DNA from: Acidobacteriota bacterium
GTDB taxonomy: Bacteria > Acidobacteriota > Blastocatellia > Pyrinomonadales > Pyrinomonadaceae
Assembly: GCA_029777145.1 (NCBI GenBank)
Contig: JAKOSS010000311.1
Location: 1-7,080, forward strand
Length of the DNA: 7,080 nt
Direction: 5' to 3'
The notes beneath the pieces are model-generated. The model had not been told where the DNA came from. It saw only the letters and a list, made by a program, of their open reading frames with translations, and did no database searches. A program made the translations under genes and the position numbers. Of the stretch, positions 1-6,884 are shown piece after piece. How positions within the stretch are numbered: position 1 is the stretch's first letter; every line of letters begins with the position of its first letter.

Positions 1-279
1 CAGCCAGTCCTGATCCTTGGGATCCTGTTCAAACTCAATCCCGGACGAACTGAGATCCGCGACTTTCGAGTCAAGGTCGTCGCACTCGAAGTAAAGTACG
101 ATGCCCGAAGCCAGGTCACTTTCGGCGGTGTGGACCGAGAGCGTCGAATTTCCGTCGGGACATTCAAGACGTGCGTAGCGCGGCAGGCTGTCGACGATTC
201 GCCGCAATCCGAGTCTTTCGTAGAATTCGACGACCGCGATCGGGTCTGTTGCGTAGATTGTGACTTGGTTCAGATCCAC
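1..279 (-). CDS. VOC (glyoxalase/bleomycin-resistance) superfamily protein, C-terminus cut off by window edge
   Basis: Reading leftward from a GTG codon at 279-277, the frame stays open for 93 codons to the window edge. The product begins VDLNQVTIYATDP, followed by the helix VVEFYERLGLRR, a strand pair (YARLECPDGNSTLSVHT), then IVLYFECDDLD and SSSGIEFEQDPKDQDWL. This is the beta-alpha-beta-beta-beta order of a vicinal oxygen chelate domain, including the family's typical 'YERLGL' helix and a late acidic 'QDW' segment. Such proteins are metal-dependent lyases, isomerases, dioxygenases or drug-binding proteins, and the substrate cannot be read here. No ATG is in frame upstream, so GTG 279 is the likely start, but no Shine-Dalgarno is visible. 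The frame is also stop-free through the repeat array back to the TGA of the preceding gene at 424-426, so the start is uncertain. Confidence 0.72.
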   Translation of the reverse strand, partial: MDLNQVTIYATDPIAVVEFYERLGLRRIVDSLPRYARLECPDGNSTLSVHTAESDLASGIVLYFECDDLDSKVADLSSSGIEFEQDPKDQDWL

Positions 280-286
280 AAGACCA

Positions 287-422
287 TTTGGGAATTCGGA
301 TTTGGGAATTCGGATTTGGGATGTGGGATTTGGGATGTGGGATTTCGGAATTCGGATTGCGTGACCATATCCGAAATCCCAAATCCCACATCCGAAATGC
401 GATATCCCACATCCGAAATGCG
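287..422. repeat. Inverted array of heptanucleotide repeats (TTTGGGA/ATTCGGA type)
   Basis: The left arm (287-363) is eleven consecutive 7-mers in exact register: TTTGGGA, ATTCGGA, TTTGGGA, ATTCGGA, TTTGGGA, TGTGGGA, TTTGGGA, TGTGGGA, TTTCGGA, ATTCGGA and a degenerate last unit. The right arm carries complementary heptads starting at 370, 377, 384, 391, 398, 405 and 412 (TCCGAAA, TCCCAAA, TCCCACA, TCCGAAA, TGCGATA, TCCCACA, TCCGAAA). Perfect inverted pairs include 319-335 with 377-393 (17 bp) and 339-349 with 370-380 (11 bp around a 20-nt loop). A 19-bp direct repeat occurs at 383-401 and 404-422. The array fills essentially the whole space between the stop of the upstream gene and the GTG of the VOC gene. 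No T-tract follows the hairpin, so it does not look like a standard terminator. Heptameric short tandem repeats are known from cyanobacteria; their function is unclear. Confidence 0.9.
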
Positions 423-423
423 T

Positions 424-882
424 TCATTCCGGTTTGAGTTGTTTGAGCATCTTCTCGGCTTCCGATTTGTATTTGCTTTGCGGGAACTTGTCGACGATCG
501 TTGTGAAGTAATCGATCGCGTCCGACTTCAGCTTCTCCGGCGCGTACTTCTTCTTTTCGTCCTCGGAAGCGTTGTCGGCAAGTTTCTGCTTGCCCTTGTT
601 CTCGGAAAGATAAACTGAGCTCATCCCCGCGATGTACAGGAATTCGTCCATTTTGGAGTATTCAGGATACGCCGCGTAGGTTTCTTCGAACCGGAGAAGG
701 ACCGCGCGGTAAGCCTTTCGCGTCCGAAAATAGTTTTGCGCGACCTCGAGGTTGTGATTCGCATCCGCCTCGAGAACCGGATCGCGATCGACCTGCGGGT
801 CGAGCTGTTTTTGCGCGGCGGCTGCCGGGGCCAATACCGCGAATGAAATGATGAATGCAACGAGTACGAATAATTTGCTCAT
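424..882 (-). CDS. Small exported TPR/BamD-like repeat protein
   Basis: The 152-residue product starts at ATG 882 with a clear Sec signal peptide: K3, a hydrophobic core at residues 4-18, and an AAAA stretch at 20-23 with likely cleavage before Q24. There is no lipobox cysteine, so it is probably soluble in the periplasm rather than a lipoprotein. The mature part is helical. Residues 44-92 (NLEVAQNYFRTRKAYRAVLL, then FEETYAAYPEYSKMDEFLY) resemble the helix pairs of BamD/YfiO and other TPR proteins. A charged linker at 95-117 is followed by a second helix pair with the typical 'YFTTIVDKFPQSKYKSEAEKML' pattern at 125-146. At about one and a half to two repeat pairs it is much shorter than BamD. 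A GTG 21 nt upstream (903) would add seven residues before the signal peptide and is less likely. The gene lies downstream of the pntB terminator and so is probably a separate transcription unit. The exact role is unknown. Confidence 0.8.
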   Translation of the reverse strand: MSKLFVLVAFIISFAVLAPAAAAQKQLDPQVDRDPVLEADANHNLEVAQNYFRTRKAYRAVLLRFEETYAAYPEYSKMDEFLYIAGMSSVYLSENKGKQKLADNASEDEKKKYAPEKLKSDAIDYFTTIVDKFPQSKYKSEAEKMLKQLKPE

Positions 883-933
883 AAAGTCGCTAAGATGCGC
901 CACGAGGCGTCATCGTTGGAAATATCGTTCTTC

Positions 934-982
934 AAAATAATAAAAGGCGGCCGGCCGAAGGCAAAGCCCGCAGCACGGCCGC
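934..982 (-). terminator. Intrinsic terminator after pntB
   Basis: On the minus strand, 20 bp after the pntB stop codon, GCGGCCG (982-976) pairs with CGGCCGC (953-947). The intervening loop can form an additional small GCC-TTC-GGC hairpin. A T-rich run read from the complement of 945-934 (TTTTATTATTTT) follows, beginning one base after the stem. A GC-rich stem with a U-rich tail is the classical rho-independent arrangement. It separates the pntAB transcript from the downstream exported TPR-like protein. Confidence 0.85.
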
Positions 983-1001
983 AAAGTAGGCAAAACAAAA
1001 A

Positions 1002-2402
1002 CTATTTCTTCGTATCGATCAGCTGCGCGAGGATCGCGTCGACGTTTTTCTTCGCGTCGCCAAACAGCATCCGCGTGTTCTCCTTGTAGAACAGCGGGTT
1101 TTCGACGCCGGCATAGCCGCTCGCCATGCCGCGCTTCATGACGATCGCGAAACTCGCCTTCCAGACTTCGAGCACCGGCATGCCGGCGATCGGGCTCGTC
1201 GGATCGTCGAGCGCCGCCGGGTTGACCGTATCGTTCGCGCCGATGACGAGCGCGACGTCGGTTTCCGGAAAGTCCTTGTTGAGTTCGTCCATTTCGAGCA
1301 CGATGTCGTACGGCACCTTCGCTTCGGCAAGAAGAACATTCATGTGACCGGGAAGTCGACCGGCGACCGGGTGAATACCGAACCGGACCTCGATCCCGCG
1401 CTTGCGGAGGATCTTCGTGATCTCGGCGACGGCATGCTGTGCCTGGGCGACCGCCATACCGTAACCGGGAACGATGATCACGTGGCGCGCTTCCGTCAGC
1501 AGATGAACCGTCTCTTCGACCGAGATCGGCGTGACCTCGCCCTCGGGCTGTTCTCCGGACGCCGGCGTCGATCCGCCCGTCGTACCGAATCCGCCCGCGA
1601 TGACGCTGATGAACGATCGGTTCATCGCCTTGCACATGATCGCGCTGAGGATCGCGCCGCTTGATCCGACGAGCGCGCCGGTGACGATCAGCAGGTCGTT
1701 CGAGAGCATGAATCCGGCGGCCGCTGCCGCCCATCCCGAGTAGCTGTTGAGCATCGAAACGACGACCGGCATGTCGCCGCCGCCGATCGCCGCGACGAGA
1801 TGCACGCCGAGGATCGCCGCCAGCGCTGTCATGATATAGAGCGGCGTCAGCGACTCTCCGGTGACGAACTGGTAGCCTAGATAGACCGAAACGATAATGA
1901 TGATCAGGTTCAGAAAATGGCGCGCCGGAAGCATCAGTGGCCGGCTTGAGATCAGCGCCCGGAGCTTTCCGAACGCGACGACCGATCCGGTGAAGGTAAT
2001 GGCACCGATGAAGACGCCGACGAATACCTCGATGTCGTGGATCGTCGCTTCGACCGGAGTCTTGAAGGTGTTGTGCTGCAAATAGCTGCCGTACCCGACA
2101 AAGACCGCCGCGAGCCCGACAAAACTGTGCAGGATCGCGACCAGTTCCGGCATCGACGTCATTGCGACCCGCGCGGCCAAAAATGCACCGATGATGACCG
2201 CCGGCACGATCACCGCGACGAGCAGTCCGTAGTTTCCGACCTTCGGCGAAAAAGCGGTCGCGAGGAACGCGACGGTCATGCCGATGATGCCGAAAAGGTT
2301 GCCGCGCCGCGCCGTTTCGGGATTCGAGAGCCCGCTCAGACTGAGAATAAAGAACGCGCTGGCGACGATGTAAGCGACTGTTAAAAGATTGTCTGAAATC
2401 AT
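1002..2402 (-). CDS. pntB: NAD(P) transhydrogenase subunit beta (proton-translocating)
   Basis: The 466-residue product is close to the family's usual ~460. It is the beta subunit of the inner-membrane transhydrogenase, which carries the NADP(H)-binding domain III and most of the proton channel. Residues 1-270 hold about nine hydrophobic segments. The channel residues known from E. coli (His91, Asp213, Asn222) correspond to H92 in [10 protein letters not shown]210 in GGGDMPVVV and N219 in MLNSYSGWA. After a linker (274-296), domain III has the NADP-binding loop [11 protein letters not shown] (312-322), IGANDTVNP (387-395, with D391) and [10 protein letters not shown] (423-432), whose K423/R424 contact the NADP 2'-phosphate in homologues. 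It ends in the expected [12 protein letters not shown] region. The ATG at 2402 matches the family N-terminus, but no Shine-Dalgarno precedes it. It is co-oriented with pntA across a 90-bp gap and surely forms one complex with it. Confidence 0.97.
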
Positions 2403-2490
2403 TGCGTTAATCGTTAATCGTGAATGGTTAATCGTTTATTTGCGGAATTCCATGGATCGCAATTAACAACTGTCAATCAACCATTAACAT
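2403..2490. repeat. GTTAATC heptad repeats, inverted arms, in the pntA-pntB gap
   Basis: On the plus strand, 2406-2440 reads GTTAATC, GTTAATC, GTGAATG, GTTAATC, GTTTATT in exact 7-bp register. On the minus strand the other half of the gap (2488-2461) gives related but more degraded heptads: GTTAATG, GTTGATT, GACAGTT, GTTAATT. The two halves therefore face each other as imperfect inverted arms around a roughly 20-bp unique centre (2441-2460). The repeat reaches to within 3 bp of the pntB start codon and leaves no purine-rich ribosome binding site there. Confidence 0.75.
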
Positions 2491-2492
2491 CA

Positions 2493-4106
2493 TTACTTTT
2501 GAAACATTCGGAGCATTCGCTGCGTGACGAGGAACCCGCCCGAGATGTTGATCGTTCCGATCAGAATTGCGATCGCGCCGAGGATCGTCGTGGCCGACGA
2601 CATCGAGCCGGCGATCTGCAGCATTCCGCCGATGATGATGATCCCGCTGATCGCATTGGTCACCGACATCAGGGGCGTATGGAGCGCCGGAGTGACGTTC
2701 CAGATGACCTGCCAGCCGACAAAGCACGCGAGCACGAACACCGTGAAATGCGAGATGAAGTTCTCGGGAGCATATGCACCGACTCCGACCAGTGCGAACA
2801 CCGCGACCGCGACGAGCACGAGGCTTCCCCAATTGTGGAATCCGCCTTCTTTCGGAGTTTCAGCGGCAGCGGCCGAAACGAGTTTCGGCGTCTGCGAGGC
2901 ATGGATCGAAGCGACGACGGGCTTCGGCAATTCCCAGGTGACCTCGCCGTTCTGCGTCACAAGCGCTCCGCGTACGACCTCGTCTTCCCAATCAACTTTG
3001 TAATTCTCGGCGCCGCCCATGTCTTTGAGCAGATGCCAAAGATTCGTGCCGTAAAGCTGGCTCGACTGGGCGGCCATGCGGCTCGGAAGATCCGTCAGGC
3101 CGACGATCTTGACTCCCTTGTAGTCGCGAACCTCGTTGGGGATCGTCACCTCGCAGTTTCCGCCCTGTTCGGCGGCGAGATCGACGACGACCGATCCTTC
3201 CTTCATCGACGAGACCATCTCTTCGGTGATCAGTGTCGGCGCCTTCTTGCCGGGGATCAGCGCGGTCGTGACGATGATATCGATGTCCTTGGCCTGGTCG
3301 GCGAAGAGCGCCATTTCGGCGTCGATGAACTCCTTCGACATGACCTTGGCGTAGCCGCCTTCGCCGGTGCCGTCCTCTTCGAACTCGAGTTCGAGGAAGT
3401 CCGCGCCCATCGACTGGACCTGTTCCTTGACGGCCGGACGGGTATCGAACGCGCGCACGATCGCTCCGAGGCTTCGTGCCGCGCCGATCGCCGCAAGACC
3501 CGCGACGCCAGCGCCGATGACAAGAACTTTCGCCGGCGGAACTTTGCCGGCGGCCGTGATCTGACCGGTGAAGAATCGTCCGAAGTTGTTCGCCGCCTCG
3601 ATCACTGCACGGTAACCGGCGATGTTCGCCATCGAACTGAGAGCGTCCATCTTCTGCGCACGCGAAATTCGCGGCACGGCGTCCATCGCAAGGACGGTCG
3701 CGTTCGTCGCCGCGAGCTTCTCAAGCAATTCCTTGTTCTGCGCCGGGTAGATGAAGCTGATCAGCGTTTTTCCGGCAGTCAAAAGGTCCGCCTCGTGCTT
3801 GCCCGTTTTCGGGTTTTCCATCGGTTGGCGGACCTTAAGGATGATGTCGGCTTCAGACCAGAGTTCTTCAGGTTTCTTGATTATCCGGCAGTTTGCCTTC
3901 TCGAACGAAGCGTCCGAAAAACTTGCATTCTCGCCGGCTCCTGATTCGATCAGCACTTCGAAACCGAGTTGCTGAAGTTTCTTGGCCGTGTCCGGCGTCG
4001 CAGCGACGCGGCATTCGCCTTCGAAGACTTCCTTCGGAATTCCGATCTTCATTGTTGGTGCTTGTTTCGAATCTTCTGTGGTTACGGGTTCTGCGGTAGT
4101 TGCCAT
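2493..4106 (-). CDS. pntA: NAD(P) transhydrogenase subunit alpha (fused form)
   Basis: The 537-residue product is the NAD(H)-binding subunit of proton-translocating transhydrogenase. With PntB it drives NADH + NADP+ to NAD+ + NADPH using inward proton flow. Domain I spans about 19-400 with MKIGIPKE (19-26), the nicotinamide-site motif PRISRAQKMDALSS (145-158; R146, Q151, D154, S157 match the catalytic residues of the Rhodospirillum rubrum enzyme) and the Rossmann loop GAGVAG (198-203). A flexible linker (about 400-425) leads to domain II with about four membrane segments (429-524), including ALHTPLMSVTNAISG, and the end MLRMFQK. It is the single-chain E. coli-type alpha, not the split alpha1/alpha2 form. 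Eighteen residues precede the usual first Met (M19), but GGAG placed 5 nt before ATG 4106 supports the longer start. It is the first gene of the pntAB operon. Confidence 0.97.
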   Translation of the reverse strand: MATTAEPVTTEDSKQAPTMKIGIPKEVFEGECRVAATPDTAKKLQQLGFEVLIESGAGENASFSDASFEKANCRIIKKPEELWSEADIILKVRQPMENPKTGKHEADLLTAGKTLISFIYPAQNKELLEKLAATNATVLAMDAVPRISRAQKMDALSSMANIAGYRAVIEAANNFGRFFTGQITAAGKVPPAKVLVIGAGVAGLAAIGAARSLGAIVRAFDTRPAVKEQVQSMGADFLELEFEEDGTGEGGYAKVMSKEFIDAEMALFADQAKDIDIIVTTALIPGKKAPTLITEEMVSSMKEGSVVVDLAAEQGGNCEVTIPNEVRDYKGVKIVGLTDLPSRMAAQSSQLYGTNLWHLLKDMGGAENYKVDWEDEVVRGALVTQNGEVTWELPKPVVASIHASQTPKLVSAAAAETPKEGGFHNWGSLVLVAVAVFALVGVGAYAPENFISHFTVFVLACFVGWQVIWNVTPALHTPLMSVTNAISGIIIIGGMLQIAGSMSSATTILGAIAILIGTINISGGFLVTQRMLRMFQK

Positions 4107-4111
4107 AGATT

Positions 4112-4115
4112 CTCC
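4112..4115 (-). promoter_or_regulatory. pntA ribosome binding site
   Basis: GGAG (followed by AATCT) sits 5 nt upstream of ATG 4106 on the minus strand. The internal ATG at 4052, which would give the canonical family N-terminus, has no such element, so this site decides the longer start. Confidence 0.75.
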
Positions 4116-4128
4116 AAATTGAAGGAAA

Positions 4129-4157
4129 ATATTAACTCAGTTAATTAGCTATGCCAA
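4129..4157 (-). promoter_or_regulatory. Candidate sigma70-type promoter of pntAB
   Basis: On the minus strand TTGGCA (4157-4152, 5 of 6 matches to the -35 consensus) is followed after exactly 17 bp by TAATAT (4134-4129, 4 of 6 to the -10 consensus). Initiation would fall near 4122, giving a leader of roughly 16 nt that just accommodates the GGAG site before the pntA start. The stretch is also the most AT-rich part of the spacer. Promoter consensus in this phylum is not firmly known to me, so this is sequence similarity only. Confidence 0.6.
4131..4145. promoter_or_regulatory. Perfect 15-bp palindrome, candidate operator
   Basis: ATTAACTCAGTTAAT is a perfect inverted repeat of 7-bp arms around a central C (4138). 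It overlaps the proposed -10 hexamer of the pntAB promoter and extends into the -35/-10 spacer, a typical place for a dimeric repressor. No regulator gene is in the window, and the site resembles no specific operator that I can name with confidence. Confidence 0.45.
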
Positions 4158-4200
4158 AACGGGCGATTGATTAGTTCGGCGACATTTCTTGTTAAGGAAA

Positions 4201-4216
4201 ACTGACGGTCGTCAGT
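4201..4216 (-). terminator. Weak terminator-like hairpin between mtnP and pntA
   Basis: ACTGAC (4216-4211 on the minus strand), loop GACC, then GTCAGT (4206-4201) form a perfect 6-bp stem, followed by TTTCC. The U-tract is only four bases counting the last stem base. The site lies downstream of mtnP and upstream of the pntAB promoter, where a terminator is expected. It is contiguous with the GTCAGTG heptad array and could simply be part of it. Confidence 0.3.
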
Positions 4217-4369
4217 GGTCAGCGGTCGGTGGTCAGTGGTCGATGGCCTGAAAATTTTCGATTTGCGATTTGCGATTTGCGATTTTGCCACGGAGACGTA
4301 CCGTGTTCAGGCTACGGTTTCCGACCACTGACCACTGACCACTGACCACCGACAACTTGCCACTGCTCA
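4211..4369. repeat. Inverted GTCAGTG heptad array with central GATTTGC tandem repeat
   Basis: The left arm has five in-register heptads from 4211: GTCAGTG, GTCAGCG, GTCGGTG, GTCAGTG, GTCGATG. The right arm is their complement: CCGACCA, CTGACCA x3, CCGACAA at 4321-4355. Two degraded heptads (CTTGCCA, CTGCTCA) then end exactly at the mtnP stop codon (4370-4372). 4211-4242 and 4322-4353 pair over 32 nt with about three or four mismatches around a 79-nt loop. Within the loop, GATTTGC is repeated three times (4260-4280), followed by GATTTTG, again with a 7-bp period. Apart from this array, the 263-bp gene-free spacer contains only the small hairpin and the pntAB promoter. No gene is seen in it. 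Confidence 0.9.
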
Positions 4370-5242
4370 CTAGCTGTATTTCCCAATGATCGCTTCGAGT
4401 TTCTTTGCCGTTTCCGGTTTCCAATGATCGGGTTGCGTGAAGATCGCGTTCTTCGTCGCGCCGGCGAACTGGTTCGGCGTCGTCTTCGCGGCGACTCGTT
4501 TGACCGCTTCCTTCAAGACGAGCTGTGCGTTGCGCACGTTGTTCGTCAGGTAACCGATCACCATGTCGAGCGTCACCGAATCATGCTCTTCGTGCCAGCA
4601 GTCGTAATCCGTCACGAGCGCCAGCGTCGCGTAGGCGATCTCGGCCTCGCGCGCGAGTTTCGCCTCCTGCAGGTTGGTCATGCCGATGATGTCCATTCCC
4701 CATTGACGGTAGACGTTCGACTCGGCTTTCGTCGAGAACGCCGGCCCCTCCATGCAGATGTAGGTGCCGCCGCGATGGACGTTCAGGCCCTCGACGGTCC
4801 GGCAGCTTGCTTCAAGAATGTCGCCGAGTTCGTCGCAAACGGGGTGTGCGAACGTGATGTGCGCGACGATCCCGTTCCCGAAAAACGTCGACTCTTCAGC
4901 GCGGGCCCGAGTCCGATCGAAAAACTGGTCCGGGATGACGAAGTCCATCGGCGCATACCGTTGCTGCAGCGACCCGACCGCCGAAACCGAAAGGATATAC
5001 TCGACGCCCAGAAGTTTCATCGCGTATATATTTGCGCGATAGGGGACTTCCGTCGGCGTAAATTTGTGCCCGCGACCATGGCGCGGCAGAAACGCTACCC
5101 GTTCGCCCTCGAGCGTTCCGATAATGAACGCATCCGACGGCTTTCCGAACGGAGTTTCGACCGTAACTTCACTGATATCGGTCAGCTCGGGCATTTGATA
5201 CAGGCCGCTGCCGCCGATGATTCCGATTTTTACTTGTTCCAT
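4370..5242 (-). CDS. mtnP: S-methyl-5'-thioadenosine phosphorylase
   Basis: The 290-residue product is the cytosolic trimeric phosphorylase that cleaves methylthioadenosine with phosphate into adenine and methylthioribose-1-phosphate, clearing a by-product of polyamine and SAM chemistry. It aligns in sequence with human MTAP almost throughout. Visible features are the phosphate loop IIGGSGL (8-14), PFGKPSDA (31-38), the phosphate-binding RHGR (54-57), SAVGSL (87-92), IPDQFFDRT (103-111), EGPAFSTKAES (165-175), the substrate Met M188 in GMTNLQEAKLARE, and TDYDCW (211-216). In homologues the two Asp of TDYDCW (D212, D214) select the adenine base, which argues for MTA rather than guanosine or inosine as substrate. 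ATG 5242 gives the family's usual start. The gene begins 3 bp after the stop of the small exported protein and lacks a strong ribosome binding site, so coupled translation is likely. No other methionine-salvage gene is adjacent. Confidence 0.95.
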   Translation of the reverse strand: MEQVKIGIIGGSGLYQMPELTDISEVTVETPFGKPSDAFIIGTLEGERVAFLPRHGRGHKFTPTEVPYRANIYAMKLLGVEYILSVSAVGSLQQRYAPMDFVIPDQFFDRTRARAEESTFFGNGIVAHITFAHPVCDELGDILEASCRTVEGLNVHRGGTYICMEGPAFSTKAESNVYRQWGMDIIGMTNLQEAKLAREAEIAYATLALVTDYDCWHEEHDSVTLDMVIGYLTNNVRNAQLVLKEAVKRVAAKTTPNQFAGATKNAIFTQPDHWKPETAKKLEAIIGKYS

Positions 5243-5245
5243 AAA

Positions 5246-5743
5246 CTATTCGCTGCCTTTCACGGCGCATCCGCCAACCTTGTCTTTGGTCAGCTCGCCG
5301 CGATCGCGCATCGCAACCAAATCGTCCATTTTCTGGTATTTGCCTTTGGGCTTTTCGGCGATCATCGCGGCGTACGCCTTGATCGCGCTTTCAACTCCGG
5401 CGAGCTGCGCCGCATCCTCGTCAGTTGCTTTTTCCGGGTTCTCGAACTTGAAGACAGCCATTCCCATCATGTACTGCGACAGGATCTCGGACCCGAACTT
5501 GTTTTTCTTGTCCAAAAAGACGGTGGTTATCTCGTTTGAGCAAACGACCAAATGAACCTCGTCCGTCTCGATCAGGTATTTCACCGCCCACCCGCGGTTC
5601 TCCTTGGCTTCTTCCGAGAAAGGTGCCGACTCGAGTTCTTTCGCAAACTTGATCAATTGCGCGCGCTTCGTGGTTTGAGCCGACGCGACGAACGAAAGAC
5701 ACAGTACGACGCAGAGAGATGCGGCGAAGGTTAAGCGTTTCAT
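5246..5743 (-). CDS. Small exported protein of unknown function, co-transcribed with mtnP
   Basis: The product has 165 residues from ATG 5743. The start is fixed by AGGAG 5 nt upstream and by the signal peptide it creates (K2-R3, hydrophobic 4-19, likely cleavage ASA-Q at 22/23). The frame is open 32 codons further up, but that extension would bury the signal peptide. The mature part looks mostly helical and charged. It contains a WAVKYLIETDEVHLVVC stretch (52-68), LDKKNKFGSEILSQYMMGMA (77-96) and an Ala-rich helix QLAGVESAIKAYAAMIAE (113-130). Only two cysteines remain after cleavage (C68, C159), which could form a disulfide. I do not recognise a named family. It sits 76 bp downstream of the hydrolase gene and 3 bp upstream of mtnP. 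Nothing in the sequence explains why an exported protein should be paired with a cytosolic phosphorylase. Confidence 0.85.
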   Translation of the reverse strand: MKRLTFAASLCVVLCLSFVASAQTTKRAQLIKFAKELESAPFSEEAKENRGWAVKYLIETDEVHLVVCSNEITTVFLDKKNKFGSEILSQYMMGMAVFKFENPEKATDEDAAQLAGVESAIKAYAAMIAEKPKGKYQKMDDLVAMRDRGELTKDKVGGCAVKGSE

Positions 5744-6672: not shown

Positions 6673-6884
6673 TCAGTACCGCCTGCGTCACAGCGGGCGG
6701 CGGTGTCAGTACCGCCTGCGTCAGCGGGCGGCGAGTGTCAGTACCGCCTGCGTCAGCGGGCGGAAATAGTCAGTACCGCCTGCGTGAGCGGGCGGCGGTG
6801 TCAATGCCGCCTGCGTCAGCGGACGGCGAGTGTCAGTACCGCCTGCGTCAGCGGGCGGCGAGTGTCAGTACCGCCTGCGTCAGA
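6673..6884. repeat. Seven tandem ~32-bp hairpin-forming repeats
   Basis: Units start at 6673, 6706, 6738, 6770, 6801, 6833 and 6865 (lengths 33, 32, 32, 31, 32, 32, and a degraded last unit). Each begins TCAGTACCGCCTGCGTCAGC, followed by GGGCGG and a 5-6 bp linker. Within a unit, CCGCCTGC and GCGGGCGG pair as an 8-bp stem around a GTCA loop. Most differences fall outside the stem: unit 1 has two extra bases in the loop, unit 4 a loop C to G, and linkers vary (CGGTG, CGAGTG, AAATAG). Only unit 5 carries a stem change, and unit 7 loses its second arm. There are no unique spacers. The array lies directly upstream of the MBL-fold gene. Confidence 0.93.
6679..6684 (-). promoter_or_regulatory. Candidate Shine-Dalgarno inside a repeat hairpin
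   Basis: On the minus strand AGGCGG (5 of 6 matches to AGGAGG) ends 7 nt before ATG 6671. It is the 3' arm of the hairpin formed by the first repeat unit (6700-6679), so folding of that hairpin would cover the ribosome binding site of the hydrolase gene. This is inferred from sequence only. Confidence 0.4.

Follow-up and report, generated by a model that had tools for sequence, protein, structure and literature searches.

The stretch analysed here, referred to below as the window, comprises 7,080 nucleotides of contig JAKOSS010000311.1 from an Acidobacteriota bacterium, and carries seven accepted genes, every one on the minus strand. Three of its intergenic regions are built from tandem heptanucleotides, arranged as two arms reading in opposite directions. 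The origin and orientation of these arrays are the subject of this work.

Heptamer spacers of the window

The arrays were located with Tandem Repeats Finder (TRF), stem searches and RNA folding:

287–358, plus strand: spacer 1, arm 1, about ten heptamers (ATTTGGG, AATTCGG, ATGTGGG, ATTTCGG; TRF, stem 295–343)
365–422, minus strand: spacer 1, arm 2, inverted heptamers of the same lexicon (TRF, stem 369–417, RNA fold)
2405–2440, plus strand: spacer 2, arm 1, GTTAATC-type heptamers immediately upstream of the pntB start codon (TRF, 2405–2436)
2459–2488, minus strand: spacer 2, arm 2, degenerate inverted heptamers just past the pntA stop codon (RNA fold)
4209–4247, plus strand: spacer 3, arm 1, GTCAGTG-type heptamers (TRF, stem 4211–4242)
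4254–4285, plus strand: centre of spacer 3, GATTTGC array with no inverted partner (TRF, fold)
4319–4366, minus strand: spacer 3, arm 2, inverted GTCAGTG heptamers just past the MTAP stop codon (TRF, stem 4322–4353)

The preliminary description attributed an exact 7-bp period to all three spacers. The period is significant in each: lag-7 self-match amounts to 0.657 (z 9.6) in spacer 1 (280–423), 0.482 (z 4.7) in spacer 2 (2403–2492) and 0.595 (z 9.6) in spacer 3 (4205–4369), values reached by 0 of 1000 dinucleotide shuffles, which give 0.25–0.26. "Exact" is too strong a word, as the TRF period-7 arrays (286–358, 365–419, 2405–2436, 4211–4241, 4254–4285 and 4323–4365) have matches of 72–96%; the second arm of spacer 2 is absent from the TRF list. 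Two other spacers of the window lack period 7, with 212 and 798 of 1000 shuffles scoring as high.

The proposed layout, an array and its inverted complement around a short centre, is strongly expressed in spacer 1 (295–343 pairing with 369–417, score 28; fold z −6.5) and spacer 3 (4211–4242 with 4322–4353, score 23; fold z −9.5), with 0 of 100 shuffles as good for either stem. Spacer 2 is weaker: its ungapped stem (2427–2440 with 2475–2488) scores only 8, a value equalled by 15 of 100 shuffles and thus not significant, so that its inverted form is taken from the RNA fold (z −2.8; 1 of 200 shuffles as good). In spacer 3 the unpaired GATTTGC array lies within a centre of about 70 bp, which cannot be called short. 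Nor is a good fold peculiar to heptamer spacers, since the pntB–TPR spacer (880–1001), which lacks period 7, folds at z −3.8 around GCGGCCGGCCG.

Each spacer has an arm that begins a few bases from a stop codon; in spacers 1 and 2 its partner reaches almost to the following start codon. Arm 1 of spacer 1 is G-rich on the plus strand and directed away from the VOC-like gene start; arm 2 is G-rich on the minus strand and begins 1–2 bp past the TPR gene stop. The trinucleotide GGG is missing from the GTCAGTG and GTTAATC arms and present in only part of spacer 1. At the pntB start (2400–2440) heptamers occupy the position of a ribosome-binding site, and no Shine-Dalgarno-like sequence is visible by eye. 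Rfam returned no matches in the window at the gathering score. A terminator scan of the window gave 11 terminator-like matches against 8.9 expected, one of which (4216–4201, minus strand) overlaps the outer end of spacer 3 arm 1.

The genes flanking these spacers are as follows:

1–279, minus strand: VOC-like (glyoxalase-type) gene, truncated by the window edge; named from reading the sequence, start per the list of open reading frames (ORFs)
424–903, minus strand: BamD/YfiO-like TPR protein (ORF and family match below cut-off)
1002–2402, minus strand: pntB, NAD(P) transhydrogenase beta (family match)
2493–4106, minus strand: pntA, NAD(P) transhydrogenase alpha (family match)
4370–5242, minus strand: S-methyl-5'-thioadenosine phosphorylase, MTAP (family match)
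5246–5743, minus strand: small protein (ORF, without family match)
Seventh gene, minus strand: lactonase-type metallo-hydrolase (ORF and family match)

A family search with the VOC-like gene returned no families; its orthologues were recovered by tblastn in relatives. The gene caller used for the counts below finds six of the seven genes, giving some of them a shorter start; the truncated VOC gene escapes it. PntA matches best in two Pyrinomonadaceae (Acidobacteriota) assemblies (77 and 78%); cyanobacteria come next, at about 74%, just ahead of a third Pyrinomonadaceae (73%). Within the order, comparison with 119 genomes gives a top match of 81%. Judging by these PntA matches and by the gene order shared with two of the Pyrinomonadaceae relatives, the window resembles that family.

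Other repeats accompany the same genes. Upstream of the lactonase-type gene, positions 6673–6883 hold a tandem array of a 32-bp unit (6.6 copies), whose core CCGCCTGC-GTCA-GCGGGCGG is itself a palindrome resembling repetitive extragenic palindromes (REP). In locus L001 (about 3790–3885) and in the sample of the relative G001, the spacer upstream of the same gene contains the 9-bp word GGGAAGTTT as inverted arms; this word family is frequent in G001, and related words are present in G003. The L002 TPR–VOC and L001 pntB–TPR spacers, orthologous to those of the window, contain REP-like hairpins with CCGCCT...AGGCGG stems.

Period, pairing and orientation in relatives and cyanobacteria

Samples of three relatives were scanned (G001, 656 kb; G002, 800 kb; G003, 1102 kb, some tests using a smaller 318-kb sample), together with a comparison set of 77 loci, nearly all cyanobacterial by record title, among them two Polyangia and genomes related to one another. 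Such relatedness, and the dominance of a single word family in G001, mean that the arrays are not independent. Contigs preselected for GATTTSG matches make up most of the first half of the G001 sample and may have inflated its counts; the other half was not so chosen. Period-7 arrays number 164, 63 and 74 in G001, G002 and G003, compared with 5, 2 and 2 at period 6 and 35, 2 and 2 at period 8, as the preliminary description had anticipated; period 9 yields 43, 5 and 12. A third-order Markov null gives 1, 0 and 0 arrays at period 7, and 0–1 per sample and period overall. The arrays of the relatives lie mostly outside genes, and heptamer arrays are a real feature of the sampled lineage. The 77-locus set has 90 period-7 arrays versus 2, 17 and 3 at periods 6, 8 and 9.

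Neighbouring arrays within 150 bp fall into inverted, direct and unrelated pairs as 37/6/5 in G001, 11/1/5 in G002 and 3/1/4 in G003, where random pairing predicts 17/17/66%, 8/8/84% and 8/6/86% (the last from the 318-kb sample). The expected excess of inverted pairs is therefore clear in two relatives (37 of 48 and 11 of 17 neighbours being same-word inverted), the 3 of 8 in the third being too few to judge. In the cyanobacterial set the figures are 1/3/17 (random expectation 3/2/95%), that is, 1 inverted neighbour in 21. Period 7 is thus widespread across distant phyla, whereas inverted pairing is lineage-dependent.

Orientation was defined by the direction of the G-richer strand of each array, and an array was assigned to a gene end when within 30 bp of it; arrays in which G and C tie (10, 1, 1 and 8 in G001, G002, G003 and the cyanobacterial set) were excluded. 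The G-rich strand runs away from the gene in 200 such arrays and toward it in 26 (84:1, 33:8, 43:10 and 40:7 in the four sets, in the same order). This outward rule applies to starts as well as stops. Convergent spacers (31:4), divergent ones (16:1) and tandem ones (153:21) all obey it, and so do arrays that share their spacer with no other (107:18). Arrays lying further than 60 bp from any gene have no lean (33:28), and array-free spacers lean the opposite way at the starts of the relatives (311 away, 418 toward; smaller G003 sample). Among the outward arrays next to stops in the relatives, 80 of 108 begin between −3 and +5 of the stop codon. The most frequent starting positions are −2 and +3, and G001 often reuses the GA of TGA.

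The pairs have the G arm first because arrays near genes run their G-rich strand away: 34 of 37 pairs in G001 (3 ties), 8 of 11 in G002 and 3 of 3 in G003. GGTCAGT pairs whose arms are 5–35 bp apart behave likewise: of the 119 genomes of the order, 7 contain G-first pairs, with 30 matches when overlapping registers are counted, and none contains a C-first pair. Two tandem GGTCAGT units occur in 67 of these genomes and three units in 32; read backwards, the patterns give 5 matches and 1, respectively. Outward-reading strands of 95 genome–word combinations contain 181 G and 72 C, with GT, GG and AGT most skewed.

Other unit lengths follow suit in G001, where intergenic arrays of periods 8 and 9 are also paired (8 of 9 and 16 of 17 neighbours inverted) and point outward at gene ends (22:1 and 18:0). 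The few G002 arrays of periods 9 and 10 near genes show no lean (2:2 and 0:2). A common generating process behind unrelated words, as previously suggested, agrees with the pntA–pntB spacer, where three genomes carry three different words: GTTAATC in the window, GTCTTTG in G002 and GTCAGTG in G003. Words differ even within a genus, GATTTCG having 358 + 355 four-unit matches (overlapping registers counted) in G001 and 0–2 in the three other genomes of its genus. The suggestion needs correcting: the process is not strictly one of seven bases, because the period-8 and period-9 arrays of G001 are likewise inverted and outward, and position and strand are not neutral, because arrays beside genes are strongly oriented.

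Possible origins of the arrays

The explanation we favour, to which we give about an even chance, is that the arrays are heptameric simple-sequence repeats such as those of Xanthomonas and of heterocystous cyanobacteria, whose heptanucleotide repeats bear the name STRR (short tandemly repeated repetitive sequences); they would originate and multiply in non-coding DNA, where one orientation persists. Tandem intergenic units of 7 bp enriched over other lengths, as in STRR, are what the scans found, and the excess of same-word convergent pairs, seen also in window spacers 1 and 3, matches the Xanthomonas type. Short direct repeats about 7 bp apart would expand by replication slippage, which could account for unit growth and for 7-bp steps; each genome would favour a few words, and these would be copied into other spacers. 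Coding sequences would be avoided because a step of seven shifts the reading frame. Outward arrays of one word at both flanking genes yield an inverted repeat, G arm first, able to fold as a hairpin in intercistronic RNA. Such a hairpin may weakly affect decay or expression of the neighbouring cistrons, and is probably mainly a by-product of the two outward arms. The orientation rule may act as a filter: A/C-rich leaders would remain open for ribosomes, and G/U-rich RNA downstream of stops would avoid Rho loading. No single operon effect would suffice, because the rule holds in convergent and divergent spacers too.

Several observations weigh against this explanation. We found no single selective reason that covers starts and stops alike. 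A mild outward lean already exists in array-free spacers, both at stops (relatives 366:264, cyanobacterial set 300:254) and at the starts of the cyanobacterial set (345:276), and the pair orientation has exceptions, with 3 of 11 G002 pairs C-first and period-9 pairs of G001 divided into 10 of 16 G-first and 6 of 16 C-first. Simple slippage predicts neither the fixed end phases and 32–33 bp size mode of GATTTCG arrays at many sites in G001, nor matching words in both arms. The arms are not simple inverted copies, because 17 varied-unit pairs (3 from the window) share words without sharing unit order beyond chance: none has mirrored order at p ≤ 0.05 and the combined p is 0.76, uniform arms being left out as uninformative. 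Slippage thus leaves the matching words unexplained, and together with the fixed ends and the size mode this makes copying of arms between spacers likely. Some copying in trans would be needed, but target-site duplications are absent in the GATTTCG family, and the unshared unit order speaks against hairpin-templated copying. No one-sided gradient of repeat decay was found along the arrays.

We consider it improbable that the arms are instead selected RNA hairpins, acting as intercistronic terminators or 3'-end stabilisers in the manner of REP elements and bacterial interspersed mosaic elements (BIME), with drifting words and a preserved stem. Strong folds in two of the three spacers agree with such a role, as does array density per kb, which is lower in divergent than in tandem and convergent spacers (0.99, 1.69 and 1.78 in G001; 0.19, 0.67 and 0.46 in G002; 0.30, 0.88 and 1.32 in the 318-kb G003 sample). 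A pntA–pntB heptamer hairpin made of different words is present in three of the five genomes compared (the window, G002 and G003); G001 has no heptamer arms there and G032 about 700 bp of other sequence, while in more distant genomes this spacer is 7–33 bp in five readable cases, and elsewhere zero or too long to compare. Against this role, unit order is unmatched between the arms, and array presence is not conserved beyond chance (p 0.74) at 52 orthologous spacers from three genome pairs, where 5 have arrays in both genomes, 11 and 9 in one only, and 27 in neither (another 30, being too short, overlapping or too long, were not used). The cyanobacterial set, moreover, follows the outward rule almost without pairs. 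T-tracts beside arms (12 of 90, 5 of 30 and 6 of 18) show no excess over control places (10, 16 and 19%). Intrinsic terminators with a T-tract after the stem are accordingly not indicated in the relatives.

Dispersed mobile palindromes, resembling REP or miniature inverted-repeat transposable elements (MITE), whose arms merely happen to be heptamer arrays, appear quite unlikely. The end phases and size mode of the G001 GATTTCG arrays would suit them, as would the GATTGG that follows 37 of 89 such arrays, the 713 four-unit GATTTCG matches in that one genome (overlapping registers counted), and the centres of 49–58 bp in 7 of the 17 pairs. Against them, the centres differ between elements on inspection, and several unrelated words take an identical layout within one genome. 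A target-site duplication of at least 5 bp, the mark of a MITE or insertion element, was found in 0 of 55 lone arrays and 0 of 17 pairs, as judged in the G001 GATTTCG family.

There is a slim chance that a directional process writes G/T-rich words of 7–9 bases, specific to the species, outward from both gene ends. An activity of this kind would extend DNA 3' ends beside genes in a telomere-like manner, so that a lone array would mark a single end of a healed break and an inverted pair its two ends; the lone outward arrays of cyanobacteria would then be the one-sided form of what the inverted pair shows on both sides. Under this reading the G strand should point outward on either side, the two arms should use the same words in unmatched order, and the centres should be non-homologous; if it is true, bacteria would possess a counterpart of interstitial telomere-like repeats. 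No enzyme is identified, none having been searched for, the period-8 and period-9 arrays of G001 take the same layout, and the start of arrays at the stop codon is not accounted for by such writing alone. A slightly smaller chance attaches to the heptamer as a binding platform, whether for quadruplex formation or for a protein that binds single strands, of which cold-shock proteins are an example. The word GGTCTTT (rotation GTCTTTG) is identical to the CspB DNA consensus published as d(GTCTTTG/C) (PMC7825780), and GT and GG abound in strands directed outward from the nearest gene, but 95 genome–word combinations are too diverse for one sequence-specific protein, several words lack GG, and only one word matches the cold-shock consensus.

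Comparison with known repeats

The long inverted-arm form had been regarded as less familiar outside cyanobacteria; convergent heptamer pairs were in fact already published for Xanthomonas. According to that paper (PMC4692102), which discusses the Xanthomonas GGGAATC and Nostoc GGGGA(C/T)T repeats as G-quadruplex sequences, two Xanthomonas genomes contain 70 and 75 inverted pairs and Nostoc few, with a heptamer excess reported for Xanthomonas and placement near ORFs for both. They share with our arrays the heptamer period, intergenic location, preference for four units, convergent inverted pairs and scarcity between divergent ORFs; their G-rich strand, too, follows stops and, ahead of starts, is the non-coding one. 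Unlike ours, they employ one G-rich word type per genome; the present arrays belong to another phylum, use many words, some without GG, change words at one locus and, in one genome, have 8- and 9-mers of similar layout. The GGG-type tract of every Xanthomonas or Nostoc unit does not run through the window arms, only part of spacer 1 having it.

STRR sequences likewise consist of tandem heptamers between genes; in our mainly cyanobacterial loci array neighbours are rarely inverted copies (1 of 21). Calothrix heptanucleotides are cited in PMC4692102, and two Cyanothece strains differ mainly by 7-nt indels in such repeats (PMC4679880), which speaks for the explanation favoured here. The TAACTGA repeats of Beggiatoaceae described in the same source also form short heptamer arrays flush with start codons, yet they use one word, run forward toward start codons and include one inverted case in 170 sets. 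The GGGACCG elements of Geobacter metallireducens are dispersed four-unit heptamers at 49 sites, but lie also within genes, and the excerpted text (PMC2700814) does not mention an outward rule. A related heptamer family is described in Chloroflexus (PMC6749651). REP and BIME elements (PMC3733652) resemble the arrays in being mostly intergenic, palindromic and placed between unidirectional and convergent ORFs, and differ in their fixed 20–40 bp palindrome, GTAG or CGTC end and lack of a short tandem word; reading of the arms revealed no fixed palindrome, GTAG/CGTC tags not being scanned for, nor genes for REP-associated tyrosine transposases (RAYT) searched.

The preference of bacterial simple repeats for seven bases is a question raised by a 2007 survey, cited in PMC4692102 for a heptamer excess and a polymerase slippage hypothesis; a later survey (PMC4060949) finds units of 4–11 bp normally or weakly over-represented in general. 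Among the matches listed from open-licence PMC papers, none on heptamer pairs in Acidobacteriota was found. Spanning dozens of words, two phyla in the present data and three published genomes, the outward rule sharply constrains any model of slippage, selection or writing, and how far it extends over words, unit lengths and phyla most merits further attention. The acidobacterial arrays are a known kind of repeat, here with an orientation rule that can be tested with strain collections.

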